From NCBI GenBank assembly GCA_031269245.1, contig JAISZL010000097.1:1-37494 (forward strand): a stretch of DNA of 37,494 nt, given 5' to 3'. The position numbers were made by a program, and so were the translations under genes. Below are positions 1,116-22,528 of the stretch, piece by piece. Numbering within the stretch: position 1 is the first letter of the stretch; each line of letters opens with the position of its first letter. Below the pieces are notes generated by a model. The model did no database searches, had not been told where the DNA came from, and was given only the letters and a program-made list of their open reading frames with translations. This DNA is from Synergistaceae bacterium (GTDB lineage: Bacteria > Synergistota > Synergistia > Synergistales > Synergistaceae).

Positions 1116-1658
1116 ATGCGGGCATGGAGCCGAGCGAGCATGACGAAATCGCGTATGGCGCCTCTTTGCGCGGGAATCATAGGCCTGTTTTCGTCAACGG
1201 GACTCGCCGTGACCGCATCGCTCCTTCTCGCGTTGGCGATGCCCGGCGCGGCCACGGCCCACGGCGTCGGCTACAGGATTTCCTCCAAACGAGCCGTGAC
1301 GCTGGAATTTTACTACTCCACGGGCGAGACTATGGCGTACCTCGAAGCCAAGGCGTACTCGCCCGCTGACGAGAAGAACGCGTTCCAGTCGGGACGCACC
1401 GACGAGTTCGGACGGGTGTCCTTCGTCCCGGACTTCGAGGGGGAGTGGCGCGTCGTGGTCAAGGACGAGGAGGGGCACATGGCTGACGCCGTAGTGCCCG
1501 TCACGTCTGAATTCTTGAGCGGCGTATCGGAGAACGGCGTATCCGCGGCCGTCCAGTCCGGCTTCCCTCAGGGCGTGGATCTCGTTTTGCGTGCCCTGCT
1601 CGGGGTCAGTGCCCTGTTCAACATCGCCGTCCTCGCGAGGCTGCGAAAATGCATATAA
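1116..1658 (+). CDS. nikL: NikL-like exported and membrane-tethered component of ECF metal transporter
   Basis: A 180-residue protein with an N-terminal hydrophobic segment (about residues 27-46, ending GAATAHG), a carboxypeptidase-regulatory-like beta domain (residues about 50-130, containing TDEFGRVSFVPDFEGEW) and a C-terminal transmembrane helix (about 155-175) followed by RLRKC. This architecture fits NikL, the partner that in some bacteria replaces NikN next to NikM. The ATG follows a GGGAAGGGAA ribosome-binding stretch. The 3' end overlaps nikM by 10 bases, which implies translational coupling. The exposed His at the start of the mature domain (AHGVGY) could bind metal. Assignment rests on position and topology; sequence identity in this family is low. 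Confidence 0.6.
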   Translation: MRAWSRASMTKSRMAPLCAGIIGLFSSTGLAVTASLLLALAMPGAATAHGVGYRISSKRAVTLEFYYSTGETMAYLEAKAYSPADEKNAFQSGRTDEFGRVSFVPDFEGEWRVVVKDEEGHMADAVVPVTSEFLSGVSENGVSAAVQSGFPQGVDLVLRALLGVSALFNIAVLARLRKCI

Positions 1659-2260
1659 GCGAAGGATTCCTCTCGGCGCCCGCGCTAGCGGCCGGATGGA
1701 CGGTCGCCGGGGCCGGAGTGGCATGGGGGCTCAAAAAAATGGACGCGGAGGAGGTCGTCAAGGTCTCTATGGCCTCGTCCGTATTCTTCCTGGCCTCACT
1801 GGTGAACGTAAAGCTCGGTCCCAGCGCGACACACCTCTCTCTCATAGGACCGATGGGGTTGTTGCTCGGGTGGGCGTCGTTCCCAGCGATCTTCACTGCC
1901 CTCCTGCTGCAGGCCGTGCTTTTCCAATTCGGCGGCCTGCTCGTACTGGGCGCTAACACGGCATCTATGGCTACCCCCGCGGTATGCGCGTATCTGATCT
2001 TCGGCCGTGCGGTGCGCTCTCAAAACTTGAATCTGTCCGCGGCCGCCGCGTTTGCGGCTGGATTCCTCTCCGTACTGGCCAGCGCGCTTTTGGTCGGGTC
2101 GTGGCTCTCGATCTCCGACCCGGACATGGCACTGACGGCCAAGAGTATTTTCGTTGCCCACGTACCGATCGCCGCGGTAGAGGGTGCAGCGGCGCTCTTC
2201 ATTACGCTGTTTCTGAAGCGCGCCTTCCCGGATATGCTGATGGGGGTGGATCGAAGGTGA
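1649..2260 (+). CDS. nikM: NikM/CbiM-family substrate-binding subunit of nickel/cobalt ECF transporter
   Basis: A 203-residue polytopic membrane protein beginning MHISEGFLS. The N-terminal Met-His is the hallmark of CbiM/NikM proteins, where His2 coordinates the metal. The signature GPSATHLSLIGPMG (around residues 58-71) is also typical. Six to seven hydrophobic segments are visible. The protein is the S-component giving Ni2+/Co2+ specificity to the ECF module encoded by the next two genes. It overlaps nikL upstream and shares GTGA with cbiQ downstream. No PDGLE/CbiN domain is fused here, unlike the second CbiM at 21479-22528, so the two transporters belong to different subtypes. Confidence 0.85.
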   Translation: MHISEGFLSAPALAAGWTVAGAGVAWGLKKMDAEEVVKVSMASSVFFLASLVNVKLGPSATHLSLIGPMGLLLGWASFPAIFTALLLQAVLFQFGGLLVLGANTASMATPAVCAYLIFGRAVRSQNLNLSAAAAFAAGFLSVLASALLVGSWLSISDPDMALTAKSIFVAHVPIAAVEGAAALFITLFLKRAFPDMLMGVDRR

Positions 2261-3030
2261 TATTGGACACGGCCGGCATCTTCAAGGAGAGCGGGATCGC
2301 TTCCAAGCTTGACTCGATCGATTCGAGATGCAGGGTGATATGCGCGTTCTGCCTCGCCCTCGCGGCAGCCGCCGTCGACGACACGCGGGCGCTCGCGTTT
2401 GGCAGCGCGCTGCCTCTCTGTTTGCTCTTCATGGATGGGCGAGATGGGCTCTCGCACCTCGTCCGCATGCTCGTGGGGGTGAACAAGGTGAGCGTCCTGG
2501 CGCTGATCTTTCTGCCGCTGACGTATCCCGGGAACCGAGTGATGATGTTTTTCTCCGTCGAGGGCGCCGCTATGGCGCTCCTGATAATATGGAAGCTCAA
2601 CATAATATCCGTAACTCTCCTCAAGATGGTCGCATCAATGGGCACGATCGGCGTGAATGAAGCGCTCGCCGCGTTGCGCTTCCCGATAAAGCTCAGGATG
2701 CTCCTGCTCCTCACCATGCGCTACGTCTTTCTCATGGCGGATAGGATGTCTACGATGACAAGGGCCATTGACCTTCGCGCGCCCGATATAAAGGGTGCCA
2801 CCGCGTGCAAGGCTTACGCCTGCATGGTTGGCACGACGCTTGTCCACAGCGCGGACAGGGCGGAGCGCGCATCGCTCGCCATGAGGTGCAGGGGCGGTAT
2901 GAACGGCTTCTCTCAGGTGCTCGTTCGCGGATGGACGTGGAGGGAGTCGGCGCTCTGCGCCGCGTTTTCCATCTACTCGATGTGCGTGGCGGCCGTCGCC
3001 GTGATGCCGCCGGGGCTGCTCGGCCCGTAA
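2257..3030 (+). CDS. cbiQ: CbiQ/NikQ transmembrane (T) component of ECF transporter
   Basis: A 257-residue integral membrane T-component that couples the ATPase to NikM. The GTG start at 2257 overlaps the nikM stop (GTGA), which sets the start: a longer upstream reading in this frame runs through nikM and is not credible. Four to five hydrophobic helices lie in residues 25-155. The two coupling motifs typical of CbiQ are present: an ALRFP segment near the middle and ERASLAMRCRG near residue 205, the A-x-x-x-RG pattern that contacts the ATPase. The gene lies in the five-gene metal-uptake operon; a seven-base gap separates it from cbiO. Confidence 0.85.
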   Translation: MILDTAGIFKESGIASKLDSIDSRCRVICAFCLALAAAAVDDTRALAFGSALPLCLLFMDGRDGLSHLVRMLVGVNKVSVLALIFLPLTYPGNRVMMFFSVEGAAMALLIIWKLNIISVTLLKMVASMGTIGVNEALAALRFPIKLRMLLLLTMRYVFLMADRMSTMTRAIDLRAPDIKGATACKAYACMVGTTLVHSADRAERASLAMRCRGGMNGFSQVLVRGWTWRESALCAAFSIYSMCVAAVAVMPPGLLGP

Positions 3031-3037
3031 ATGGCGC

Positions 3038-3748
3038 ATGGCGGCGCTGCTTGAGACGAAGGGCCTCTGCTACGACTACCCGGACGGCACTCCGGCGCTG
3101 ACGGATGTGTCGATTCGTCTGAATGAGGGGGGCAAGACGGCACTCATCGGGGCGAACGGCTCCGGCAAGTCGACGCTCCTCATGCTGCTGGCTGGGTGTT
3201 TCGCCCCTAGTCGGGGCGAGGTCCTGCTGCGCGGCGAACCGGCGGGGCAAGACCTCTGGATGCTGAAGAACTCTGCCGGGCTGGTGTTTCAGGAGCCGGA
3301 CGACCAGCTCTTCATGCCGAGCGTCCTGGAGGACGCGGCCTTCGGGCTCGTCGCGCGCGATGTGCCGGCGGAGGAGGCACGGGCCATAGCGCGAGCGTGC
3401 CTCGAAAAACTCGGCATCCAGCACTTGGCGGATCGCCCGCCCCACCGCCTGTCGGGGGGCGAAAAACGGTCCGCCGCGCTCGCCGGCATACTGGCGATGA
3501 AGCCCGAGATAATACTGCTCGACGAGCCCTCCGCCTCGCTTGACCCGAGGGCTCGCCGCAATCTCATCGGCACGCTGCGCGAGCTGGATAAGACGATGGT
3601 CATAGCGACGCACGATCTCGAAATGGCTTCCGCCCTCTGCGACGCCGCCGTGCTGCTCTTCAAGGGGCGCGTGGCGGGAGAGGGCTTCATGGGCTGCCCG
3701 GAAAATTCGCTTATGGACGAGAAATTCCTGCGGGACCACGGCCTGTAA
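3038..3748 (+). CDS. cbiO: CbiO/NikO ATPase of ECF metal transporter
   Basis: A 236-residue ABC ATPase. Walker A GANGSGKST lies at residues 38-46, the Q-loop is in VFQEPDDQLF, the signature is LSGGEKR, Walker B is IILLDEP, and the switch His is in ATHDLE. The QEPDDQLF sequence around the Q-loop is characteristic of cobalt/nickel ECF ATPases. It powers uptake through CbiQ and NikM. The start at 3038 (ATGGCGGCG) is preferred; an ATG at 3031 is out of frame. It is the last gene of the operon. No clear T-rich terminator follows; the gap instead holds a repeat element. Confidence 0.9.
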   Translation: MAALLETKGLCYDYPDGTPALTDVSIRLNEGGKTALIGANGSGKSTLLMLLAGCFAPSRGEVLLRGEPAGQDLWMLKNSAGLVFQEPDDQLFMPSVLEDAAFGLVARDVPAEEARAIARACLEKLGIQHLADRPPHRLSGGEKRSAALAGILAMKPEIILLDEPSASLDPRARRNLIGTLRELDKTMVIATHDLEMASALCDAAVLLFKGRVAGEGFMGCPENSLMDEKFLRDHGL

Positions 3749-4737: not shown

Positions 4738-5895
4738 TTGTCGAAAGTGAGCAATATAGTTTCTGATGTGGCGGCGTTGCAGGATTACCTGCGGCTGTTC
4801 AAGAACATGGACATATGGTTCATGTTGATGCTCGTAGCGTTTTTAATGATATTCATCCGCAAGTTCGAGTGGTCCACCTGCCTAGCTGTTCTTTTAAGCG
4901 CTGTTTCAAGTATGGTCACGTATATTTTTCTCTGTCAGAAGGTAAAGGGGATGTCCCCCGAGGCGTTGTTCGGGACGCAGGACACGATGATCGCGGGCGT
5001 CGTGTGTGCCATCACGGTCGTCATAGCGATAGGCGTTTTTTTGGGAACGGTCAAGACTTGGCAGTATCTCGTGGCCGGCGTCCTGTTCTCACCGGCGTTC
5101 ATGTTCTTGGAGTTCATCCTGTGGGAGTGGCTTCCTGGCGTAACCCAGGGCACTGTCACCGACCCGGGCGGGGGGATATTGGTGCACCTGTTCGCTGCGT
5201 ACTGGGGCTTGGGAGTCGCCATCGGAGTGAGGGAGAAGCGCGCGTTCGACGAGCCGATGTTGACGTCGAAACACAGCGTCAGCTTCGTATGGCTGGCGGC
5301 GATGGTTCTGTTCGTCCTGTGGCCCTCGTTCGTCACGTCGCTCCTGCCGCTGGAGCAGAACACGATGGCCTCCATCAACTGCTATTTCTCGGGCTTCGGC
5401 TCCATCGTCACCGCCTACATTACATGCGCGGCGGTCTCCAAGACTCATAGGGTCAACCCGCTCGTCTACACCTACGCCATGCTCGCCGGCCCGGTCGCCA
5501 GCAGTTCGACGCTCCTCTTAGCCACGCCGTGGGCGTCCCTGCTCATAGGAGCGGCGGCGGGAACGCTCAGCGCGCTATCCTTCACCTATCTGAACGCTTG
5601 GCTGTGCGGGAAGATCAAAGCGCTCGACGTCATGGGAGTGCATAACCTTCACGGCGTCGGCGGCTGGATCTCCCTGCTGACCGGAGCCATGCTGGCGGGC
5701 AGCATCGTCAACGTGTGGGCCGGGATTATCACCGCCGCCCTGGGTATCGTGGCTGGGATCGTGACTGGCCTCGTGTTGCTGGCCACCAGAGGGGACATGC
5801 CCCTGGAGAAGCTGTTCAACGATGACGACGTCTTCGAGGGGTTCAATCCAGATCCCCGCGTAGAGCCGGGCGAAGGGGTCGTGGCGGCCAAATGA
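4738..5895 (+). CDS. Rh/Amt-family ammonium or methylammonium permease
   Basis: A 385-residue polytopic membrane protein with about eleven hydrophobic segments. It resembles Rh proteins more than bacterial AmtB: the segment DPGGGILVHLFAAYWGL (residues 142-158) matches the Rh pattern around the first channel His (H150), LFVLWPSF (191-198) resembles the Rh segment LFLWxxWPSF, and NLHGVGGW (303-310) carries the second twin His (H305). Rh/Amt channels conduct NH3 or CH3NH2. Lying directly before mtmC-mtmB, it probably imports methylamine or exports the ammonia released by demethylation. The start is TTG 4738 with GGAG 5 bases upstream, or GTG 4747 with GAGGGG 9 bases upstream; both are plausible. 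The stop is TGA. Confidence 0.85.
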   Translation: MSKVSNIVSDVAALQDYLRLFKNMDIWFMLMLVAFLMIFIRKFEWSTCLAVLLSAVSSMVTYIFLCQKVKGMSPEALFGTQDTMIAGVVCAITVVIAIGVFLGTVKTWQYLVAGVLFSPAFMFLEFILWEWLPGVTQGTVTDPGGGILVHLFAAYWGLGVAIGVREKRAFDEPMLTSKHSVSFVWLAAMVLFVLWPSFVTSLLPLEQNTMASINCYFSGFGSIVTAYITCAAVSKTHRVNPLVYTYAMLAGPVASSSTLLLATPWASLLIGAAAGTLSALSFTYLNAWLCGKIKALDVMGVHNLHGVGGWISLLTGAMLAGSIVNVWAGIITAALGIVAGIVTGLVLLATRGDMPLEKLFNDDDVFEGFNPDPRVEPGEGVVAAK

Positions 5896-5913
5896 TTTCC
5901 TAAAGACGCGATG

Positions 5914-5964
5914 AACCCCGCAGTGGGGGGGGACCACCATCTCCCCCTCGAAGTAAGCGGGTTT
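5914..5964 (+). terminator. Hairpin between permease and mtmC (attenuator-like)
   Basis: AACCCCGC (5914-5921) pairs with GCGGGTTT (5957-5964) with one bulge. Inside this an eight-G run faces CCCCC. The structure is strong but is followed by TATTGGTTAAAAATT rather than a clean T-run, so partial termination, or an RNA-processing site that sets different levels of permease and MtmC, is more likely than a full stop. Confidence 0.5.
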
Positions 5965-6064
5965 ATTGGTTAAAAATTGTCTGAGCGGGCTCCTTTCTGT
6001 TCGGAGTCAGGAGGACAGTGGTTCCTTCTCCAAAAAACAAAAGCGGAAGGAGGTGAAATGAAAA

Positions 6065-6718
6065 TTGAGTCAGCAAATCCTGGACAAACTGAAGAAATCT
6101 ATCGAGACCTTGGATGCGAAATTAGCGGAGGAAGCCTCTAAAGAGGCAGTGGCAGCGAAGATACCGCTGAACACCTCACTTGAGGCGCTCACGAAGGGAA
6201 TCACGGTGGTAAGCGACGCCTTCGATGAGGGAGAAATGTTCATCCCGCATCTCATACTTGCGGGCAAAGCGTTCGAAAAATCGGCTGAAATCCTGACCGC
6301 CGGGGTCTCCGTGGAGGAAAGGGCAGCCAGTTCCAAAGGCAAGGTGCTTGCGCACACAGTGCAGGGAGACATCCATTCCATCGGCAAGAACATATGCGTC
6401 ATTCTGCTCAAAGCCAGCGGATACGAGGTCTACGATGCCGGTGTGGACGTCCCTGTGCAGGACATCGTCGACAAGGCGGAGGAGATGGGAGCGGATATCA
6501 TTCTCGGTTCCGCCCTCATGACCACGACGATGCCGGCGCAGAGGGATATCGTCAACCTTCTGAAAGAAAAAGGGCTTCGCGACAAGTATTTTGTCTTGTT
6601 CGGCGGAGCACCCACATCGCAGCAGTGGGTGGAACAGATCGGCGCGGACGGGTGGTCGGACACGGGCCCCGGCTCCGTCAGGGTAGCAAATGAGTATATG
6701 TCCCAAAAAAAGAAATAA
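6065..6718 (+). CDS. mtmC: Monomethylamine corrinoid protein MtmC
   Basis: A 217-residue methylamine-type corrinoid protein. Residues 1-90 form the helical cap. Residues 92-217 form the B12-binding Rossmann domain with the base-off motif GDIHSIGKN (101-109), where H104 is the lower cobalt ligand. SALMTTTM (about 155-162) and the late FGGAP segment complete the fold. It accepts the methyl group from MtmB and passes it on. The start is TTG at 6065, with GGAAGGAGG about 11 bases upstream. An ATG at 6058 is out of frame and stops early. The 24-base gap to mtmB shows co-transcription. MtmC, MtbC and MttC are close relatives; the MtmB neighbour decides the substrate. Confidence 0.92.
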   Translation: MSQQILDKLKKSIETLDAKLAEEASKEAVAAKIPLNTSLEALTKGITVVSDAFDEGEMFIPHLILAGKAFEKSAEILTAGVSVEERAASSKGKVLAHTVQGDIHSIGKNICVILLKASGYEVYDAGVDVPVQDIVDKAEEMGADIILGSALMTTTMPAQRDIVNLLKEKGLRDKYFVLFGGAPTSQQWVEQIGADGWSDTGPGSVRVANEYMSQKKK

Positions 6719-6742
6719 TGAAAGAAAGGAGGTTGATCTAGG

Positions 6743-8140
6743 ATGTCGCTTGTCCGTAAAGTGAATATTTACGACGTATTTGACAGAGCGAAGTCTGGCC
6801 AGCAGATGGAGGAATCCCAGTGGGATTACGAAGTCATTCCGCAGACCGCGTCTAAGCTCAAGGAAAAATACAAGATCAAGATGGACAAGACGAAGATGGT
6901 CCCCGAGGACAAGACCTTAATCGACAATCTGTACCTGGCAGGCATCGACATGCTGGAAGAGTGCGGAGTGTACTGCACCGACACCAAGCGTGTGATCAAG
7001 TACACCAGGGAAGAGATTATGGCGGCCATTGAGTCTGTGCCAACGAACGTGCAATACGGCGAGGGGAAAGAAGCGCTGTTCTTGAACCCGAGAAGTTACG
7101 ACAGCAAAACGCCTCCGATCATACAGGGCGGCCCCACTGGCGCCCCCTGCTCGGAAGCCCTTTTCCTTCCGATCCATCAGTCTTATGCCCAGGAGGGCTT
7201 GGTAGACTGCATCGTTGACGGCGTCATGCAGACCATCAACGGCAGGGACCCAACCCCTGGCAGCCCCTACGAAATCGCCGCGGTAAGAGCGGAATGCCTG
7301 CAGGTGCGCGATGCCTGCATGCGCGCCGGTCGCCCCGGCCTGGGATTATAGGGGAGCGAAACTTCCCTGTCCGCCGCTGGCGTCATCGCCTCGGATTTTC
7401 CGGGCGGCATGCGGCCGAGTGACAGTCACGAAATTTCGCAGCTATGCGAGCTCAAGATCGACCAGAGCGCTATTTGTTACATTTCCCACTATATACAGAA
7501 TGGGAACGTAATAATGGTCGAACAAATGCCAATATATGGCGGTTACGCCGGAGGTCTCGAGGAGACGACCATCGTAGGCGTAGCTACAACCATAAATTCA
7601 TTTGTTATGGCTCACGCGACCTGGCATCTGGATGGACCGGTGCATGTGAGATGGGGCATCACGACCGCGAGAGAGGCTCTCGCCGTCGCGGGTCACGTTA
7701 GCATGACTATCGACCAGAAAACAGATATGATTTTGGGCAACCAGTATTACACGTTGGCGGGGCCTTGCACCGTCATGTGCCTGTTGGAGACAGCCGCCCA
7801 AGCGATCACGGACACGGCCAGCGGACGGGAGATCCTGTCCGGGGTCGCTGCCGCGAAGGGCGTCAAAACCAACTACCATACTGGTCTGGAAGCCAGAATG
7901 ATGGCGGAGGCCGCCCGTGCCGTGACAGGTATGGAGACGGGCAAGGTGAACGGAATCCTCCACAATCTGGTAGCCGCCTACGAGAAGGATTACAAAACGG
8001 CTCCTGTAGGGAAACCCTTCCAGGATTGCTATGACACCGTGAGGATACTGCCCTCGCCTGAGTATTTGAAAGTATATGACGATGCCGTCAAAGTGCTTAC
8101 GGACCTCGGGTTGGATTACTGGAAGAACAAGGGCAAATAA
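6743..8140 (+). CDS. mtmB: Monomethylamine methyltransferase MtmB with in-frame UAG (pyrrolysine 203)
   Basis: One 465-residue product read through UAG at 7349-7351. The frame is identical before and after (202 codons, UAG, 262 codons, TAA). It transfers the methyl group of monomethylamine to the Co(I) corrinoid of MtmC. The context GLGL-Pyl-GSETSLSA matches my recollection of archaeal MtmB, where pyrrolysine is residue 202. The downstream half carries family segments such as MPIYGGYAGG, EETTIVGVAT, WHLDGPVHVRWG and ITDTASGREILSGVA, with no second disruption. The ATG at 6743 has AAAGGAGGT about 10 bases upstream. A premature stop or pseudogene is unlikely because pylT and all pyl genes follow. 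Short stem-loops could form after the UAG (GGGA/TCCC; GCCGC/GCGGC), but a PYLIS role is unproven. Confidence 0.95.
7349..7351 (+). other. UAG codon read as pyrrolysine
   Basis: TAG lies at codon 203 of mtmB, in the same frame as the 202 codons before it and the 262 after it. The site corresponds to the catalytic pyrrolysine of MtmB. The matching CUA tRNA is encoded at 8277-8349. Confidence 0.95.
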
Positions 8141-8179
8141 GCGGCGACATGGCGGACTGACGTTTCAAGACTGACGAAC

Positions 8180-8230
8180 AGAGGGGAAATTTCCGACGGA
8201 GCAGGGTCTCTTGAAGAATATCCCCTCTTT
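8180..8230 (+). terminator. Hairpin between mtmB and pylT
   Basis: AGAGGGGA (8180-8187) is the exact complement of TCCCCTCT (8221-8228), followed by a short T stretch. The loop is long (33 bases). It may stop part of the mtm transcription or mark processing of a joint mtm-pyl transcript. Confidence 0.4.
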
Positions 8231-8276
8231 CCATCGATAGAAATGGCAAAAGGGGAAGATTCGCAAGTTATTGAGC

Positions 8277-8349
8277 GGAGAATGGATCGATAAGGATCAC
8301 GCGGACTCTAAATCCGCGCAGTCGGGTGTGACTCCCGGATTCTCCGCCA
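8277..8349 (+). tRNA. pylT: tRNA-Pyl (CUA anticodon)
   Basis: A 73-base tRNA, CCA encoded. The acceptor stem GGAGAAT pairs with ATTCTCC (8339-8345), followed by discriminator G. A single base (G8284) joins acceptor and D stem, the D stem is GATC/GATC (8285-8288, 8295-8298), and the anticodon stem is six pairs long (CGCGGA/TCCGCG). The anticodon CTA is at 8308-8310 in loop CTCTAAA, and the variable loop is minimal (CAG). The T stem TCGGG/CCCGG has one wobble pair. The single linker base, six-pair anticodon stem and three-base variable loop are hallmarks of tRNA-Pyl. It inserts pyrrolysine at UAG. Confidence 0.97.
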
Positions 8350-8375
8350 AACATCCAATCAGGAGGGTGACTTGC

Positions 8376-9212
8376 ATGTTCCCTTTCACCGACGGGCAGA
8401 AAAGGAGATTGTTGGAGTTGGGCGCCGCCCCATCCGCCTGCGAGGCGGAGTTCGAGGATGCGGCAGCGAGCGATAGGCGCTTCAAGGCGCTGGAAAAAGA
8501 GCTGGTCAGCGCGTCAAAGCGACGGCTCGGCGATCTGAGGGAAGGATCTCGCCGCCCTGCGCTGCTCGTTTTGCAGTCAGAGGTCGAGTGCGCGCTGCGC
8601 GAGGAGGGCTTCGTGCAGGTGAGCACCCCCGTCATCCTGGCGAAGCGAATGCTCGAGAGGATGTCCATAGGAGACGGCCACGCACTTTCGTCGCAGGTGT
8701 TCTGGCTTGAGGACGACAGGTGTCTGAGGCCGATGCTCGCCCCGAACCTCTACAGCGTGTCCACGGATCTGATGCGGATATGGGAAAAACCGATCCGCAT
8801 CTTCGAAATAGGCCCATGCTTCCGAAAGGAATCTCAGGGCAACCGCCACCTCAATGAATTCACGATGTGCAACCTAGTCGAATGGGGTACGCCCGAGGAA
8901 GCCCGAGCCGACCGGCTCAGGCAGCTGGCGCGCGTCGTCATGTCCGCCGCCGGGATAGACGGCTGCGACTTGGAGGAGACGGACTCCGAGGTGTACGGTC
9001 CCTCGCTCGACGTGGTCTGGAGAGGCATGGAGCTCGCCTCCGGCAACATAGGCCCGCACTTCCTGGACGCCAACTGGGGCATCCGCTCCACATGGGTCGG
9101 GCTGGGTTTTGGACTGGAGCGCCTGCTTATGGCGCGGCAGAAGACGAACAACATCCACAGCGTTGGCAAGAGCCTCAGCTATCTGGACGGCGTAAGGCTC
9201 AGAATAAATTAA
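8376..9212 (+). CDS. pylSc: Pyrrolysyl-tRNA synthetase catalytic domain PylSc
   Basis: A 278-residue class II synthetase catalytic domain without the tRNA-binding N-terminal domain, which is encoded separately at 12426. Motif 2 is GPCFRKES (146-153) and motif 3 is GLGFGLERLLM (242-252). The pyrrolysine pocket is recognisable: APNLY (122-126), N166 in FTMCNLVEWG (equivalent to Methanosarcina Asn346), Y207 in VYGPSLD (Tyr384) and W240 (Trp417). The Cys348 equivalent is Val168. ATG 8376 has AGGAGGG upstream; the open frame to its left lies inside pylT and is not coding. The protein charges tRNA-Pyl. It is the first protein gene of pylSc-B-C-D-Sn; pylB follows after 16 bases. Confidence 0.96.
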   Translation: MFPFTDGQKRRLLELGAAPSACEAEFEDAAASDRRFKALEKELVSASKRRLGDLREGSRRPALLVLQSEVECALREEGFVQVSTPVILAKRMLERMSIGDGHALSSQVFWLEDDRCLRPMLAPNLYSVSTDLMRIWEKPIRIFEIGPCFRKESQGNRHLNEFTMCNLVEWGTPEEARADRLRQLARVVMSAAGIDGCDLEETDSEVYGPSLDVVWRGMELASGNIGPHFLDANWGIRSTWVGLGFGLERLLMARQKTNNIHSVGKSLSYLDGVRLRIN

Positions 9213-9228
9213 ATCCTGGAGAGATCCA

Positions 9229-10320
9229 ATGACGATAAATCATAGGGACAGTTTTGACGAGACACTGCGAATGGCGATGGAAGACCATCCTCTTGAGGAA
9301 TCCCATCTGGAAATTTTGCTCGGCGCGGAGGGGGTTCAGCGCGAAGCCCTCTATGCCGCGGCGCGGGAGTGCCGCCTGAAGCATTTCGGCGACCGCCTCT
9401 TCGGATATGGATTCATATATTTTTCGACGTATTGCCGCAACGACTGCACCTTCTGCTTCTATCGCAGGTCCAACGGAGACGCGCCGCGATACAGGAAGAC
9501 GAAGGACGATGTGATCAGGACGGCCAAGGCCCTGACGGAGAGCGGTGCGCACCTGCTCGACCTAACGCTGGGGGAGGACCCTCACTACGTCATGGACGAC
9601 GAGGGCTACGACATGCTGCTGGACATAGCGGACGACATGCGCGCGCTTAATGGTCTGCCGCTGATGATCTCCCCGGGGGTGTTGGAGGGCGGCAGGATCA
9701 AAAAAGCCGCGAGGGCCGGCATATCGTTCTACGCGTGCTATCAGGAGACGCACAACCGCCAGCTCTTCTCCGCGCTGCGCCAGGGACAGGACTACGAGAC
9801 GCGATGGAACGCCAAGATGAGCGCGCGGGAGGGGGGGATGCTGGTGGAGGAGGGCATCCTGACCGGGGTTGGCGAGACGCTGGCCGACATCGCGCACTCG
9901 ATCAAGACCATGAAGGAGATGCGAGCCGCGCAGGTCCGTGTCATGAGCTTCGTGCCTCAGAGGGGAGCGCCGCTGAAACGAGCTATCGAGGATGGCCTGT
10001 ATCCGCGTGAGCTCAACACCATCGCGGTCATGCGCGTGTCGATGCCCGGCAAATTCATACCCGCGTCGCTCGACGTGGCCGGCAAGGCCGGGCTGAAGGA
10101 GAGACTCGACGCTGGCGCCAACGTCATAACCTCGCTCATCATGCCGGAGAGCGGTTTCGCCGGCGTCTCGAACGCTACGTTGGACGTCGACAACGGCAGC
10201 CGCTCTCTGCCGGGCATCTTGGACACGATAGGCGAACTCGGCCTTCGAATGGGCAGCGGGAGCGAGTTCGAAAGCGCGCTCGGCAAGCTGCGCGAGGAGT
10301 GCGAGATCCAATGCGCGTAG
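9229..10320 (+). CDS. pylB: Methylornithine synthase PylB (radical SAM)
   Basis: A 363-residue radical SAM enzyme that rearranges L-lysine to (3R)-3-methyl-D-ornithine, the first step of pyrrolysine synthesis. The cluster motif is CRNDCTFC at 69-76 (C-x3-C-x2-C), preceded by FIYFSTY. SAM- and substrate-binding segments such as LTLGEDPHY, GVGET and SFVPQRGAPL are present, and the length matches the family. ATG 9229 follows GGAGAG. The gene ends in TAG (10318-10320) and overlaps the start of pylC (ATGCGCGTAG). In a cell that decodes UAG this would permit a 51-residue read-through extension past the UAG residue, to TGA at 10474, reading across pylC in another frame. Confidence 0.96.
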   Translation: MTINHRDSFDETLRMAMEDHPLEESHLEILLGAEGVQREALYAAARECRLKHFGDRLFGYGFIYFSTYCRNDCTFCFYRRSNGDAPRYRKTKDDVIRTAKALTESGAHLLDLTLGEDPHYVMDDEGYDMLLDIADDMRALNGLPLMISPGVLEGGRIKKAARAGISFYACYQETHNRQLFSALRQGQDYETRWNAKMSAREGGMLVEEGILTGVGETLADIAHSIKTMKEMRAAQVRVMSFVPQRGAPLKRAIEDGLYPRELNTIAVMRVSMPGKFIPASLDVAGKAGLKERLDAGANVITSLIMPESGFAGVSNATLDVDNGSRSLPGILDTIGELGLRMGSGSEFESALGKLREECEIQCA

Positions 10321-11423
10321 CGATCGTCGGGGGTAGGCTGCAGGGGGTCGAGGCCGCCTACCTGGCTCGCGAGGCGGGCTATGAGAGCGTGGTGGTGGAT
10401 CGCGACAAAAACGCCCCGGCGTCCAGCCTGTGCGACAAATTCGTCTGTGGGGACGCCCTGGACCGTGCCGTGCTGAGGGAAGCCTTCGAGGGCGCTGACG
10501 CGGTCGTGCCAGCCATCGAAAACGACGCCGTGCTGGAGTCGGCTGGGCTCGCCGCGAAGGATAAGGGCATCCCGTTTCTGCACGACGAACACTCATACAG
10601 GATATCCTCCAGCAAACTGGAGTCCGACGAGATGTTCGGCGAAATCGGCGTCCCGGCCCCGGCGCCGTGGCCGCGCTGCGGGTTCCCGCTGATAGCCAAG
10701 CCCAGCGGGGAGAGCGGCAGCGCTGGGGTGGCGCTGATAGAGAACCGGGCGCAACTGGACGAATGGACGCGCCTGAACGGCGGCAAGCCCTACGTGCTTC
10801 AGCAGTATCTCCCCGGGCCGTCGTACTCCATCGAAGTCGTCGGGGATGGGGAGCGCTGCGGCGCGCTGCAGGTGACCGAGCTATTCATGGACGAGGTTCA
10901 CGACTGCTGCCGCGTGATAACGCCGTCTCTCCTGGCGCCGGAGGCGGATGCCAAATTCAGGGAGATCTCCCTTCGCATCGCGCGCAGGCTGAAGATAAGG
11001 GGCGTGTTTGACGTGGAGATCATCTTGCACGAAAACGAGTGCAAGGTGCTGGAGATCGACGCGCGCCTGCCCAGCCAGACGCCCACCGCGGTATATCACT
11101 CCTCCGGTGTGAACATTTTGGAGTTGATATGCAGGTCCGCCTTGGACGGGCGTCTGCCCGAGACCGGCCGGAGCCGGGAGGAGTCCGTGCTGTACCAGCA
11201 CATTTACGCGGACGGACGCGGCGTCTCGGTCCTCGGGGAGCACGTCATGGGTGCTTGCGGGCCGCTGCGAAAACATGACGGATTCCTTGGCGCCGACATA
11301 GCCATAACGAGCTGGAGCCCCGGAGCGAGCCCTTGGGCCGCCACGCTGATCTACCTCGGGGGGACGCGGGAGACGCTCATAGAGCGCCAGAGGGAGAGTG
11401 TCCTGAGTGCCAGAGGGCTGTAA
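10311..11423 (+). CDS. pylC: Pyrrolysine biosynthesis ligase PylC (ATP-grasp)
   Basis: A 370-residue ATP-grasp ligase that joins (3R)-3-methyl-D-ornithine to the epsilon-amino group of lysine. The N-terminal Rossmann-like part starts MRVAIVGGRLQGVEAAYLA, followed by the ATP-grasp fold with PLIAKPSGESGSAGV (nucleotide-binding loop) and KVLEIDARLPSQTPTAVYHSSG, whose acidic residues bind Mg-ATP. The ATG at 10311 overlaps the pylB stop by 10 bases. A GTG at 10299 is an alternative, but homologues begin at the Rossmann strand. The overlap makes translation of pylC depend on ribosomes finishing pylB. Confidence 0.94.
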   Translation: MRVAIVGGRLQGVEAAYLAREAGYESVVVDRDKNAPASSLCDKFVCGDALDRAVLREAFEGADAVVPAIENDAVLESAGLAAKDKGIPFLHDEHSYRISSSKLESDEMFGEIGVPAPAPWPRCGFPLIAKPSGESGSAGVALIENRAQLDEWTRLNGGKPYVLQQYLPGPSYSIEVVGDGERCGALQVTELFMDEVHDCCRVITPSLLAPEADAKFREISLRIARRLKIRGVFDVEIILHENECKVLEIDARLPSQTPTAVYHSSGVNILELICRSALDGRLPETGRSREESVLYQHIYADGRGVSVLGEHVMGACGPLRKHDGFLGADIAITSWSPGASPWAATLIYLGGTRETLIERQRESVLSARGL

Positions 11424-11448
11424 AACAAATGACTCCGTATCTTTATGA

Positions 11449-11480
11449 GGAACGCTGATTTGCCGTCAGCGGCCTGAAGG
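11449..11480 (+). repeat. Dispersed intergenic repeat, 5' module, between pylC and pylD
   Basis: GGAACGCTGATTTGCCGTCA followed by GCGGCCTGAAGG matches copies at 24155-24196 (opposite strand), 33729-33766 and 15141-15175 (opposite strand). Its last bases (GAAGG, continuing AGG) create the Shine-Dalgarno sequence of pylD, so the repeat now forms part of the pyl operon. Confidence 0.6.
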
Positions 11481-11486
11481 AGGATC

Positions 11487-12293
11487 GTGAAGGGCATGAC
11501 CAGGTTGGTTGAAGTGGACATTGCGGACCTTACTGAAAAACTTGCGAAGTACGACCTGTATTTGAAGGAAGTTTGCGGCAAAAACCTCGAGGGGATCGCT
11601 AAGACCGCCGCCAAAAAATCAGAGTCCCCGGCGGCGGCGCGAGTGGCGGTTGTGCCCGTAACGTCGGGCCTGGGCATCATAAACGGGTTCTCGGAGACGG
11701 TAGCAGGCATCGCCAATTTCCTTGGATACTCCGCGCGCGTCACGAACGAGACGGACATAGCCGGCATCGCCGAGGCTGTGAGCGGCCAGTGCGACATCTT
11801 AATGGCGGCCGACGACGAGACGTTCATCGCGGTGAACCCCAAAAAGCGGCTCGTCTCGGACAACAGCGAGGCCACTGGCCGGGGATACGCAACCGCGCTC
11901 TCGCTGGCGGCGGGGGGGCTTGAGAGCAGAGATGTGCTTTTGCTCGGAGCGGGCCCTGTTGGCCGCGCCGCCGCCGCCGTCATGCTCCTCGGCGGCGCGC
12001 GGCTGACCGTCTACGACACGGACGCGGGCAAAGCCGAGTCGCTGCGGCGCTCGCACCCATCCGTCCGAATCGCCCGAAACCTCGATGAGGCGCTGTCTGA
12101 ACACTCGCTGCTCTTTGACGCGACGCCCTCCGGCGCTTTCATCCGCAAGGAGCCGCTCCGCCAGGACGCCATCCTCTCCGCGCCGGGCGTACCCCTCTGC
12201 CTTGACAGCGAGTGCGAGGAGTGGATGCGAGGGCGCGTGCTGCACGACGTGCTGGAGATCGGCGTGGCCACCATGCTGTTCGACGTGACATGA
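11487..12293 (+). CDS. pylD: Pyrrolysine synthase PylD (dehydrogenase/cyclase)
   Basis: A 268-residue NAD-dependent enzyme that oxidises the lysine-methylornithine dipeptide, after which the pyrroline ring closes. The N-terminal helical substrate domain contains PVTSGLGIINGFSETV (57-72), a PylD hallmark. The Rossmann domain has LLGAGPVGRAA (152-162), and CLDSECEEW is near the C-terminus. The start may be GTG 11487, three bases after AAGGAGG, or ATG 11496, twelve bases after it; neither spacing is ideal. The gap to pylC carries a dispersed repeat that donates this ribosome-binding site. A hairpin follows the gene at about 12297-12317. Confidence 0.94.
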   Translation: MKGMTRLVEVDIADLTEKLAKYDLYLKEVCGKNLEGIAKTAAKKSESPAAARVAVVPVTSGLGIINGFSETVAGIANFLGYSARVTNETDIAGIAEAVSGQCDILMAADDETFIAVNPKKRLVSDNSEATGRGYATALSLAAGGLESRDVLLLGAGPVGRAAAAVMLLGGARLTVYDTDAGKAESLRRSHPSVRIARNLDEALSEHSLLFDATPSGAFIRKEPLRQDAILSAPGVPLCLDSECEEWMRGRVLHDVLEIGVATMLFDVT

Positions 12294-12296
12294 GGT

Positions 12297-12317
12297 TAAC
12301 CCGGTTTCAGCCGGGTT
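12297..12317 (+). terminator. Short hairpin after pylD without T-run
   Basis: AACCCGG and CCGGGTT (within 12297-12317) flank a small loop. There is no poly-T, so it may be an RNA stability or processing element inside the pyl transcript rather than a terminator. The remaining 110 bases to pylSn hold no gene. Confidence 0.35.
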
Positions 12318-12425
12318 CGATGTGAGGGCTCGGCACGGGAACACCGCCGTTGAGACCTTGTTGGATACATGCCTCTGGCCGCGAATTGCCATGAGGCGGC
12401 AAACCACTGACGGAAGGGTATTTGA

Positions 12426-12773
12426 ATGGCCAAGACCATCGACAGGATAGTGAAGAAGGAACATGAAAAGGACATCGTCAAAAAAGTGTACAACAAGAAC
12501 CAGAGCTTGTTCGCTATACTTGAAAAAATCAAGCTCTACACTTCGCGGACCGGCGTGCTGCACGGCGTCAGGAAAATCGAGATACACGGCCAGACCGCCA
12601 CGATCACGACGCACTGCGGGCAGACGATAGAGGTGCGCGACTCGAAGAACAGCCGCGTCGGGCGCTGGCTGCGGAACCGCTGGATGGTCGAGCCCTGCGC
12701 CAAGTGCAAGATCCCGGGCTGGAAGCTCGAAAAATACTCCACGACTCGTTTCGTGAAAAAGAGGAGCCGCTGA
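12426..12773 (+). CDS. pylSn: Pyrrolysyl-tRNA synthetase tRNA-binding domain PylSn
   Basis: A 115-residue stand-alone version of the N-terminal domain of PylRS that grips the compact core and short variable loop of tRNA-Pyl. Recognisable features are TGVLHGVRKIEIHG (about 42-55), a Cys in HCGQTIEVRDSKNSRVGRWL (63-82) that parallels the archaeal run ending SRSSRTARAL, and CAKCK (91-95) forming the small zinc site. The first 30 residues are lysine-rich and helical, an extension relative to the archaeal domain. ATG 12426 follows GGAAGGG. Separation from pylSc by three genes is the usual bacterial order. A three-base gap leads to the DUF1638 gene. Confidence 0.93.
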   Translation: MAKTIDRIVKKEHEKDIVKKVYNKNQSLFAILEKIKLYTSRTGVLHGVRKIEIHGQTATITTHCGQTIEVRDSKNSRVGRWLRNRWMVEPCAKCKIPGWKLEKYSTTRFVKKRSR

Positions 12774-12776
12774 CCA

Positions 12777-13430
12777 ATGGACATCATAGTCGCTTGCAAG
12801 ACAATTCGCATGGAGCTGGAGAAGGTGATCGAGGAGACGGCGTGCCCGTTCCCCGTGATCTGGATGGATCCGGGCCTTCACGACGTCCCGAAGAAACTTC
12901 ACGGCGTTCTGCAGGAGACGCTGGACAGAATTGCCAACGTCGAGCACGTCCTGCTGTATTTCGGTTTTTGCGGCAACGCGCTCCTGGGGCTGGTGCCGCA
13001 CGGATTCAAGCTCGTGTTCCCAAAGGCTGACGACTGCATCACGCTGCTGCTGGGCTCCTCAAACCGCCGCAAGGAGCTGGAGCCGCGCAGTTATTTCTTC
13101 ACCCCCGGCTGGCTTGGCAACGGCAAAAGCATCCTGACCGAATACGACGACGCGGTAAAGGAGTTCGGCGAGGCGTCCGCGGATTACGTCTACGAATTCA
13201 TGCTGAGCGGATACCAGCGCGCGCTTCTGGTGGACACGCACGTAGGCGACATGGATGCCGTGAGGGAGATGACGCGCCCGTTCACCGAAAAGTTCAAACT
13301 CTCGCAGGAACTGGTCGAGGGTGACACGCGGATGTTCCGCCAGATGCTGGCCAAAGAATGGGACGAGAATTTCGTCGTCATCCAGCCGGAGGAGGAAGTG
13401 ACATCCGCACATCTCTTCGGGGAGCGGTGA
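12777..13430 (+). CDS. DUF1638 protein, pyl-operon partner
   Basis: A 217-residue soluble protein of the DUF1638 family, recognised from the opening IIVACKTIRMELE (C7), the segment LHDVPKKLHGVLQETLD and the Cys-Gly motif YFGFCGNALLGL (around residues 61-72). The family's biochemistry is not established as far as I know. Its members recur near corrinoid methyltransferase genes, and here the gene sits three bases after pylSn, so it is almost certainly co-expressed with the methylamine system. The conserved Cys and His residues could bind metal, corrinoid or a cofactor precursor (inference). ATG 12777 has GAGGAG about 10 bases upstream. The stop is TGA. Confidence 0.8.
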   Translation: MDIIVACKTIRMELEKVIEETACPFPVIWMDPGLHDVPKKLHGVLQETLDRIANVEHVLLYFGFCGNALLGLVPHGFKLVFPKADDCITLLLGSSNRRKELEPRSYFFTPGWLGNGKSILTEYDDAVKEFGEASADYVYEFMLSGYQRALLVDTHVGDMDAVREMTRPFTEKFKLSQELVEGDTRMFRQMLAKEWDENFVVIQPEEEVTSAHLFGER

Positions 13431-20011: not shown

Positions 20012-20707
20012 TTATAGCCCATACATCTCCAGCCTTTCTTCGTCGGTCAGTATTTCCACGGCGCTCCCTTCCGCGCAGACCTCCCCGTCACGCAGGACGA
20101 CCGCGCGTGAGCAGAGCCGTCTCGCCAGATCGAGGTCGTGTGTCGCCACCAGGATGGTTTGAGACAGGGACGAGAGCAGCCTTATCAGGTTCCTCCTGGA
20201 GCGGGGATCAAGGGACGACGACGGCTCATCCAGGAGGAGCGTACTTGGGGCCATGGACAGGACCGATGCCAGCCCCACAAGGCGTTTCTCCCCGCCCGAC
20301 AGCCTGTCCGAGATGCGGTCTCTCAGGTGTGAGGCGTCAAGCCGTCCCAGCGAAGTGTCCACCCTGCAACTTACCTCCTCCTCCGGCAGCCCCATGTTAC
20401 GGGGGCCGAAAGCCACGTCCTCGCTGACCTTCGTCATGAAAAGCTGGTCGTCAGGGTTTTGAAAGACAATGCCGACCCTGGCGCGTATCTCGGGTACGGT
20501 ATTTCTGGAGAGTACGATTCCGTCCACGGAGATCTCGCCGCCCGATACGGGCAGTAACCCTACTATAGCGCGAAGCAATGTCGATTTGCCCGCGCCATTG
20601 GCGCCGACAAGCGCCGCGCGCTCCCCGCGGCCGAGCGCGAAGCCCACTCCGTTGAGAGCGAGGTTCCCGTCCGGGTAAATTACAGAAACGCCTTTCAGCT
20701 CAAGCAT
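20012..20707 (-). CDS. cbiO: CbiO ATPase of the cobalt ECF transporter
   Basis: A 231-residue ABC ATPase starting MLELKGVSVIYPDG at 20707. Walker A is GANGAGKST, the Q-loop region VFQNPDDQLFM is typical of cobalt/nickel ECF ATPases, the signature is LSGGEKR, Walker B is TLLLDEP, and the switch His is in ATHDLD. It energises CbiM/CbiQ encoded just before it, and overlaps cbiQ by 13 bases. A much longer open frame reaching 21418 reads through cbiQ in another frame and is not coding. It is clearly distinct from the other CbiO (3038-3748). Confidence 0.93.
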   Translation of the reverse strand: MLELKGVSVIYPDGNLALNGVGFALGRGERAALVGANGAGKSTLLRAIVGLLPVSGGEISVDGIVLSRNTVPEIRARVGIVFQNPDDQLFMTKVSEDVAFGPRNMGLPEEEVSCRVDTSLGRLDASHLRDRISDRLSGGEKRLVGLASVLSMAPSTLLLDEPSSSLDPRSRRNLIRLLSSLSQTILVATHDLDLARRLCSRAVVLRDGEVCAEGSAVEILTDEERLEMYGL

Positions 20708-21486
20708 CTGGGAATGATCATTGCGCCGCACACGGCCGCCAGGATCAGCATGTCGCCCGCGCCGAGTCGTTCGCGGCGGGGGGTCGGGTAAGCCCCGGAA
20801 AAGCCCCTGCACTTCATAGCGCTGTACACCCTCCCCGCCCGGTCTATGCTGCGCAGCAAAAGCGCGCCGACGAACGCGCCGGTGTCTCCCATGCGGATAC
20901 CTCGCGCTCCGGGGCAGCGGACGGCGTATGCCTCGTACAGGGTGCCGGTCTCGCCGGTCAGCACGCCCAGATAGCGGTACGTCAGAACGAGCTGCAGCAC
21001 AAAGAGTTCCGGCACCTTCATGAACACGAGCTGGCGTGACAGATCCGCCATGCCCGTCGCGGACACGAGAAGCAATACGGCCGATACGGACAGCACGGTC
21101 TTCGACATTATCGATACGAAAGATACCACTCCGCCTGTCACCGCAAAACCTCCTACGGACATCACCGGCTCCGTGTCGAAAAGGACATTGCCTATTCCCC
21201 CGAACAGCGTGAAGGGCAGCGCCGGGAGCAGCCTCCGCATCAGGATCCGAGGGGGCGTCTCGGACAACGGCACGAGAATGGCGGGGTAGAGAAAATATGG
21301 CGTGAGGGCGCTGACCTCGTAGCGCCCGAAGGATACGACGACGGCCACGTAAACTATGGTCGCGGCCATCTTGACGAAAGGGTGCAGCCTGTGGATAACG
21401 GTGTCGCGCCCGGCGCACATCTCAAGCGTGTTCAGACCGGAGAGCGCGCCGAACCCGACGAAAGACCCGCTGTCGCGCCTATACAT
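20695..21486 (-). CDS. cbiQ: CbiQ transmembrane component of the cobalt ECF transporter
   Basis: A 263-residue membrane protein with about five hydrophobic helices (roughly 40-80, 95-130, 140-165, 235-260). Near the N-terminus the CbiQ pattern of Asp/Arg-rich sequence before the first helix is visible (GRDTVIHRLHPFVKM). Coupling-helix motifs appear as QLVFMKVPELFVLQL and RVYSAMKCRGFSG, the latter being the A-x-x-x-RG contact to CbiO. Its ATG (21486) overlaps the TAG stop of cbiM, so the two are translationally coupled. The gene sits centrally in cbiM-cbiQ-cbiO. Confidence 0.92.
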   Translation of the reverse strand: MYRRDSGSFVGFGALSGLNTLEMCAGRDTVIHRLHPFVKMAATIVYVAVVVSFGRYEVSALTPYFLYPAILVPLSETPPRILMRRLLPALPFTLFGGIGNVLFDTEPVMSVGGFAVTGGVVSFVSIMSKTVLSVSAVLLLVSATGMADLSRQLVFMKVPELFVLQLVLTYRYLGVLTGETGTLYEAYAVRCPGARGIRMGDTGAFVGALLLRSIDRAGRVYSAMKCRGFSGAYPTPRRERLGAGDMLILAAVCGAMIIPRCLS

Positions 21487-22528
21487 TATTCCCAGCGTGT
21501 TTTTTTAACGCGGAGGCCAATAACCCGGCGACGAACGCAAGAACCAGGGTGAGCGCGCCGCCTACGATCCCGGCGGTACTCGTTCCCAACGCGGAGCCTT
21601 CATCGCCCGCCGATTTGAAACCGTAGTCCGGCATGAACGCCGTCTTCTCCTGTATGGCGGCGGCGCTGTCATAAGCCCCGCCCTCCCTCTCAAACTCGGC
21701 GGTGCCCGCCGCCTTTTCCATGGACCACTCCAACCCGTCCGGGTAAGACGAAGCGTAAAGCGACAGCCCGCCGCCTATGACCGCCGCCATAGCCAGCAAC
21801 GCAAGCAGCGTCTTCCCGAACGATAGCGCGCCGCGGTCTTCTCCACGCGCCGTGCCGCGCGAAGCGGCGTAAGAGTCCAGTATGTCGGGCCGTGCCTGGA
21901 ACACGAAGCATAACACGGCTGCGGTGATGGCCCCCTCTATCACCCCAATAGCGAGGTGAATTGGCTGCATTAGCAGCACAAATGTCCCAAACGGGAGCTC
22001 GGTGACCCCGGAGAGCAAGGTCTGCAGCACGACGCTGAATGCCCCTAGTTGAAGGCCGACGACGACGGACACCACGGACGCCGCCGTTATCCTCCCACGG
22101 CTCAGGCCGCTCCTGACCATAGGCTTGAATATAAGCGGATACGCCACGAAACAGGCGTACACGCCCATGTTGAATATGTTGCATCCTAGGGCCAGCAACC
22201 CCCCGTCCGCGAAGAAAAGACACTGTATTATGAGCACAGCCGCTATCGTCAGTAGCGAGGCGTAAGGACCAAGCATCGCCGCCAGCAGGATGCCGCCCCC
22301 TATGTGCCCGCTCGACCCGGTGGCCGGTATAGTGAAATTGATCATCTGGGCCGCGAACACGAACGCCCCCATGACCCCCATTACGGGCGCCCTGCCTTCC
22401 ACAGAAGCTCCAAGATTTGATTCGCCAGCGCTTTTCAGCTTCACAACGGAATAAGCCAAAGCCCCAGCGCTCGCCAACGCCATTACTCCGCTCACGGCGG
22501 GTGAAAGCAACGCGTCTGCCATATGCAT
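21479..22528 (-). CDS. cbiM: CbiM with fused C-terminal PDGLE (CbiN-like) domain
   Basis: A 349-residue cobalt-binding S-component. It starts MHMADALLSPAVSG at 22528, nine bases after AGGAGG; this start keeps His2, the expected metal ligand. Conserved CbiM segments include TGSSGHIGGGIL, ALGCNIFNMGVYACF and QPIHLAIGVIEG. Residues about 255-349 form an extra domain with PDGLEWSMEKAAG and MPDYGF, the PDGLE/CbiN-like module, ending in a last transmembrane helix. The fusion replaces a separate CbiN. It probably imports Co2+ for the corrinoid of MtmC. The stop TAG overlaps cbiQ. Confidence 0.93.
   Translation of the reverse strand: MHMADALLSPAVSGVMALASAGALAYSVVKLKSAGESNLGASVEGRAPVMGVMGAFVFAAQMINFTIPATGSSGHIGGGILLAAMLGPYASLLTIAAVLIIQCLFFADGGLLALGCNIFNMGVYACFVAYPLIFKPMVRSGLSRGRITAASVVSVVVGLQLGAFSVVLQTLLSGVTELPFGTFVLLMQPIHLAIGVIEGAITAAVLCFVFQARPDILDSYAASRGTARGEDRGALSFGKTLLALLAMAAVIGGGLSLYASSYPDGLEWSMEKAAGTAEFEREGGAYDSAAAIQEKTAFMPDYGFKSAGDEGSALGTSTAGIVGGALTLVLAFVAGLLASALKKHAGNNV

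Follow-up and report, generated by a model that had tools for sequence, protein, structure and literature searches.

An in-frame UAG in a Synergistaceae monomethylamine methyltransferase gene, probably read as pyrrolysine with the help of an adjacent pyl cassette

Does the UAG triplet that interrupts the monomethylamine methyltransferase gene of a Synergistaceae bacterium inactivate that gene, or is it read as an amino acid? The gene lies in a 37,494-nucleotide window that makes up a whole contig (C77) of a Synergistaceae genome of 2.34 Mb, 96.7% complete, and the bacterial host supposed in a first-pass annotation of the DNA is confirmed. From position 6743 the translation runs for 202 codons to a TAG (7349-7351, codon 203) and continues in the same frame for a further 262 codons before reaching TAA (8138-8140), UAG203 being the sole interruption. 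Mechanical calling of open reading frames returns two pieces (6743-7351 and 7409-8140), which is the split that had been foreseen for automatic annotation. Our preferred reading, which we hold at a probability of roughly 95% on the strength of the sequence, is that the gene is intact and encodes a monomethylamine methyltransferase (MtmB) that depends on a corrinoid; UAG203 would be decoded as pyrrolysine (Pyl) by machinery that the gene's own cassette supplies. The two features at issue are the following.

6743..8140, + strand: mtmB, monomethylamine:corrinoid methyltransferase; read-through of UAG203 gives 465 residues (frame translation, Pfam, alignment, dN/dS)
7349..7351, + strand: in-frame UAG at residue 203, predicted to encode pyrrolysine and corresponding to Pyl202 of M. 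barkeri (translation, alignment)

The read-through protein covers the PF05369 profile completely (1-450 of 450, 713 bits) and its residues 5-457 align with the M. barkeri MtmB structures 1l2q and 1tv2, in keeping with the first-pass view of an intact MtmB of normal full length whose frame is kept exactly across the UAG. The UAG column coincides with the non-standard residue X of 1l2q and with the lysine that substitutes for pyrrolysine in 1tv2, and it falls at 203 here and at 202 in M. barkeri because one residue is inserted upstream. The M. barkeri active-site residues E229, E259, Q333 and Y335, to which the 1l2q structure paper reportedly assigns a catalytic role, are retained in the alignment as E230, E260, Q334 and Y336, each shifted by +1. 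The likeness to the M. barkeri enzyme thus extends over full-length homology, the Pyl column and the active site, while the present protein differs in being bacterial, in the numbering of its UAG and in its methyl acceptor, presumably tetrahydrofolate and not coenzyme M. Alignment with archaeal MtmB, a comparison suggested at the outset, places the UAG on the Pyl column, and TAG occupies this column in all eight archaeal and all ten bacterial Pyl-type mtmB genes compared.

Selection has acted on both halves of the gene. Measured against the closest relative, a sister species (G026), mtmB gives dN/dS values of 0.029/0.76 (~0.04) before the UAG and 0.029/0.46 (~0.06) after it, which shows strong purifying selection on either side and agrees with the conserved segments that had been seen to flank the codon; the MtmB of a Synergistaceae MAG locus (L007) is 95% identical and, with the family search, supports placing the genome in this family. 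These low ratios, together with the fixed column of the UAG, argue against a nonsense mutation under relaxed selection. An inactivating mutation in a decaying mtmB pseudogene, or else a sequencing artefact, might be entertained for a sequence that comes from a MAG and in which roughly one gene in five normally ends in UAG, but we consider it extremely improbable given that dN/dS stays below 0.1 on each side, that the UAG coincides exactly with the catalytic Pyl column in all Pyl-type relatives, which span two domains, that the same UAG is found in two species and that a complete pyl machinery is adjacent. As a separate observation, mtmB diverges less from G026 (95% amino-acid identity, dS 0.57) than do its operon neighbours (69-86%, dS of 1.4 to 2.9 where measured), perhaps because mtmB was exchanged recently or because its codons are strongly constrained; pylD, pylSn and the DUF1638 gene lay outside the set for which dN/dS against G026 was computed.

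The gene is part of an operon-like cassette of 8.7 kb (4738-13430), in which it stands between mtmC and pylT. The other members, in order, are:

4738..5895, + strand: Rh-type (Rh50-like) ammonium/methylammonium channel, first gene of the cassette (PF00909; best solved relatives Rh50, Amt/Rh family, E 6e-38)
6065..6718, + strand: mtmC-type corrinoid protein, TTG start, SD AAGGAGG (B12-binding domains PF02310 and PF02607)
8277..8349, + strand: pylT, tRNA-Pyl, CUA anticodon, CCA encoded (ARAGORN; fold)
8376..9212, + strand: pylSc, catalytic subunit of pyrrolysyl-tRNA synthetase (TIGR02367, 332.7 bits against a cut-off of 178)
9229..10320, + strand: pylB, methylornithine synthase (TIGR03910, 412 bits against 348)
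10311..11423, + strand: pylC, 3-methylornithine-lysine ligase, starting at ATG 10311 or GTG 10299 (TIGR03909, 365 bits against 248)
11487..12293, + strand: pylD, 3-methylornithyl-lysine dehydrogenase (TIGR03911, 274 bits against 150)
12426..12773, + strand: pylSn, tRNA-Pyl-binding small subunit (TIGR03912, 108.8 bits against 51)
12777..13430, + strand: DUF1638 protein, closing the conserved cassette (PF07796; same place in G026 and in a third pyl genome, G030)

The cut-offs for PylSc, PylB, PylC, PylD and PylSn are those of NCBI curated models and all five are exceeded, so that the first-pass claim of pylT and all pyl genes downstream of mtmB holds. In its fold the tRNA has an anticodon stem of 6 bp, one base separating the acceptor and D stems and a variable loop of 3 nt, and it lacks TPsiC. 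PylSc finds its best structural match in D. hafniense PylSc (3dsq, E 7.5e-94; 2zni), and PylSn matches the N-terminal domain of PylRS (5ud5). The corrinoid protein that adjoins mtmB (6065-6718) is of the type cognate to MtmB and matches the TIGR02370 subfamily, with a score under that model's cut-off. No regulator gene was identified in the cassette, a point that we count against the pyrrolysine reading. The DUF1638 gene directly after pylSn ends the cassette in all three pyl genomes, and a weaker homologue is present on C80, a contig with an MttB homologue and MeTr.

Given how widely UAG is used as a stop in this genome, the pyl genes may be switched off in a wide range of conditions, and a near-cognate or suppressor tRNA could then insert one of the standard amino acids at UAG203 while the pyl genes stay silent. 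This is highly improbable in our judgement, since all pyl genes are intact, the proteins they encode share 69-86% identity across species and have dN lower than dS wherever the two were computed, and the 73 nt of pylT do not differ from those in G026; moreover, no second CUA tRNA was found in the portion of the genome that was sampled (67%), a weak point because only six tRNAs were detected there.

Pyrrolysine decoding of UAG203 would have to coexist with the ordinary use of this codon as a stop. Depending on the score cut-off, TAG ends 18.6-20.5% of predicted genes (131 of 706 to 264 of 1286) in the 1.57 of 2.34 Mb (67% of the genome) over which stops were counted, and the genes so ended include pylB and others in which the Pfam domain stops shortly before the TAG. 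A TAG share of about 21% has been described as matching Pyl-encoding bacteria (PMC9723677), and bacterial users of Pyl have been described as handling it by regulation and not by avoidance of UAG (PMC3941956). Since UAG is also an ordinary stop here, its decoding as Pyl would have to be conditional or confined to particular sites, and the insertion of Pyl is probably governed by expression of the cassette, in competition with termination.

In a sub-case of the pyrrolysine reading, UAG203 would mostly terminate, so that a 202-residue fragment or the off-state prevails and full-length Pyl-MtmB is made only with monomethylamine. The use of UAG as a stop, by which a 202-residue product could also arise, the regulation of Pyl in other bacteria (PMC3941956) and the failure to find a conserved UAG-proximal recoding element in bacterial mtmB all point in this direction; however, the downstream 262 codons are conserved as strongly as the upstream part, which indicates that full-length MtmB is the product kept by selection. 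We regard predominant termination as possible, but would sooner bet against it.

Whether UAG203 is the only such codon in the genome was approached from two sides. Read-through was sought in the 264 genes that end in TAG within 67% of the genome, and Pfam was run on the 20 whose extensions look like coding sequence. A single candidate has a Pfam domain across the TAG, a PDDEXK_2 gene (L100:9992-10768, G000:C21) that is truncated at its 5' end and adjacent to a transposase-like fragment, and we rejected it as probably a pseudogene, although there are proposals of transposases that contain Pyl in methanogens. The other candidates were set aside as Pyl proteins because their domains, where found, stop before the TAG, as in tandem genes (examples are ribosomal protein L18, SAICAR synthetase and a MacB-type permease). 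Family searches of the whole genome recovered three MttB homologues, all of them without stops, and no MtbB. Apart from MtmB, no convincing Pyl protein was seen, with the TAG screen covering 67% of the genome and the family searches all of it.

At the end of pylB (window 10311-10320), the UAG stop lies within the pylC start (ATGCGCATAG); the stop is also UAG in G026 and is UGA in G030. A UAG stop inside the Pyl operon might confer sensitivity to Pyl-tRNA levels. A more far-reaching idea, and in our estimation a long shot, is that Pyl-tRNA competes with release factor at mtmB and at many genuine UAG stops alike, giving rise during growth on monomethylamine to extended proteins and feedback, and that read-through at the pylB stop could adjust the output of PylB and PylC. 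If this were true, the genus would represent a natural, switchable organism in which UAG has a dual meaning.

A further question is whether decoding of UAG203 needs an mRNA element of the PYLIS type on the 3' side of that codon. The Rfam model PYLIS_1 (RF01982) matches 7349-7448 with 64.7 bits, slightly below its gathering cut-off of 70 (two Clostridia mtmB genes reach 77-78 bits), and the 102 nt past the UAG are more stable than synonymous shuffles (z -2.4, p 0.015). Against such a requirement, helix 2 (inner) is broken at three of its seven pairs in the window, covariation across ten bacteria is no greater than in shuffles, a local hairpin shows no covariation at all, and codons +1 to +20 show no excess synonymous constraint in bacteria but a strong one in Methanomassiliicoccales-type genes. 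As this archaeal control set is strongly positive, the test is able to detect an element of this kind. We therefore think the requirement unlikely, and a conserved recoding element in bacterial mtmB genes is not supported by the sequences compared. A UAG-proximal hairpin at 7349-7369 was likewise rejected, for it has a modest fold signal in the window but neither covariation nor nearby synonymous constraint in bacteria. A weak signal of excess synonymous identity among the ten bacterial mtmB genes occurs at codons +21 to +40 (window 7412-7471; p <0.001 in one of ten bins). The Methanomassiliicoccales-type genes (L005, L006, L008, L009, L010, L011, L012) carry a near-invariant hairpin 9-39 nt after the UAG, GAGACCCCGCUG UCCG CAGCGGG AC GUCUC, which is under strong synonymous constraint and is unlike the Rfam PYLIS_1 fold.

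With UAG203 read as pyrrolysine, we propose the following route for monomethylamine. PylB, PylC and PylD would convert lysine to Pyl, which PylSc and PylSn would charge onto tRNA-Pyl(CUA), and the ribosome would place it at UAG203 in an active site shared with E230, E260, Q334 and Y336. MtmB would then demethylate monomethylamine, loading the methyl group onto the Co(I) corrinoid carried by MtmC and releasing ammonium, which may exit via the adjacent Rh-type channel. A separate methyltransferase would pass the methyl group on to tetrahydrofolate, the best candidate being a MeTr-like PF00809 protein encoded on contig C80 near an MttB homologue, and the corrinoid would be reactivated by RamA-type proteins, which are encoded on C29 and C35. 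One URO-D-family protein is encoded on C78. The association of Rh50 with mtmB has been reported in methanogens and read as ammonium export (PMC5209957), and an Rh-type gene adjoins mtmB in G026 and in the Methanomassiliicoccales-type loci L005, L008, L009 and L012. Two cobalt-uptake sets (CbiM, CbiQ and ATPase) lie on either side of the cassette, one just upstream (1649-3748) and one at 20012-22528, and both fit a high corrinoid demand.

The cassette combines features of several known systems. The gene order pylT-Sc-B-C-D-Sn has been described for bacteria (PMC3941956), and the D. hafniense-type system shares this order with the present one, along with the split PylSc and PylSn, the use of UAG also as a stop and the closest PylSc structure. 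It is distinct from that system in its Synergistaceae host, in opening with an Rh-type channel and closing with DUF1638, and in that the only Pyl-type methyltransferase of the genome is MtmB, with no Pyl-type MttB or MtbB. The linkage of mtmC, mtmB, pylT and the pyl genes is found in Clostridia and Coriobacteriia as well, where clusters such as that of Pseudobacteroides have the same mtmC-mtmB-pylT order, the same UAG codon and MtmB proteins of 65-73% identity; branching of the bacterial sequences in the MtmB tree is not resolved. In two annotated Clostridia/Coriobacteriia loci a RamA-URO-D fusion lies in the gap of ~3 kb after pylT, whereas here pylSc follows directly and RamA is encoded elsewhere. 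The URO-D methyltransferase domain of these fusions is MtbA-like, its partner is a RamA-type activase, and the fusions lie between pylT and the pyl synthesis genes (L194:10755-13490 and L198:10454-13180; Clostridia, Coriobacteriia-class). The Rh-type channel beside mtmB is a likeness to the Methanomassiliicoccales loci, which are archaeal and, unlike the bacterial genes, possess a strongly conserved hairpin close to the UAG. Among the loci compared, the Rh50-like channel (4738-5895) next to mtmCB is shared only with these Methanomassiliicoccales-type loci, in addition to G026, which suggests that an Rh-mtm unit has passed between these bacteria and archaea of the gut.

PylD scores above its cut-off in 3 of 188 Synergistota genomes, all three belonging to one genus (represented by 11 genomes in the set), and PylSc is found in the same three. 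The GC3 of the pyl genes matches that of the genome, which makes contamination of the bin unlikely. From the Rh-type gene through DUF1638, every gene of the window has its counterpart at the same place in G026; outside that stretch the two differ, and the genes that flank the cassette of G026 on one side have their homologues on our C43, in a stretch without a cassette; the pyrrolysine code therefore resides in a compact 8.7-kb cassette that occupies different sites in two sister species. No mtmB was seen in the third pyl genome, which we list against the preferred reading, although its contig (in G030) stops 5 bases beyond pylT and the absence is uninformative. Carriage of the cassette by plasmids or viruses was considered and dropped, as no PylSc match was found in plasmids and no MtmB in viral contigs. 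Published lists of Pyl bacteria name Firmicutes and Deltaproteobacteria/Desulfobacterota, and no earlier report of pyl genes in Synergistota was found in the literature searched, though papers outside that search may report them. The methyltransferase, the pyrrolysine code and the order of the genes were already known; as far as the searchable literature goes, Synergistota, through one genus, joins the phyla known to host the pyrrolysine code. The PylRS and tRNA-Pyl found here offer another natural split pair for genetic-code work.

A second PF05369 protein of the same genome lacks an in-frame stop and has valine at the Pyl column (contig C14, G000:C14:4978-6327; L002:1492-2868), with a corrinoid protein and an NhaC-type antiporter as neighbours. 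The non-Pyl MtmB homologue MtqB demethylates tetramethylammonium and choline (PMC13044021). Both belong to PF05369 without Pyl, and by analogy the C14 protein, with its valine at that column, is possibly a quaternary-amine methyltransferase like MtqB. A single genome thus holds Pyl and Pyl-free MtmB homologues together and uses UAG both as a common stop and, on the preferred reading, as a sense codon. Similar Pyl-free proteins of the MtmB family occur in 14 other genomes of the family.
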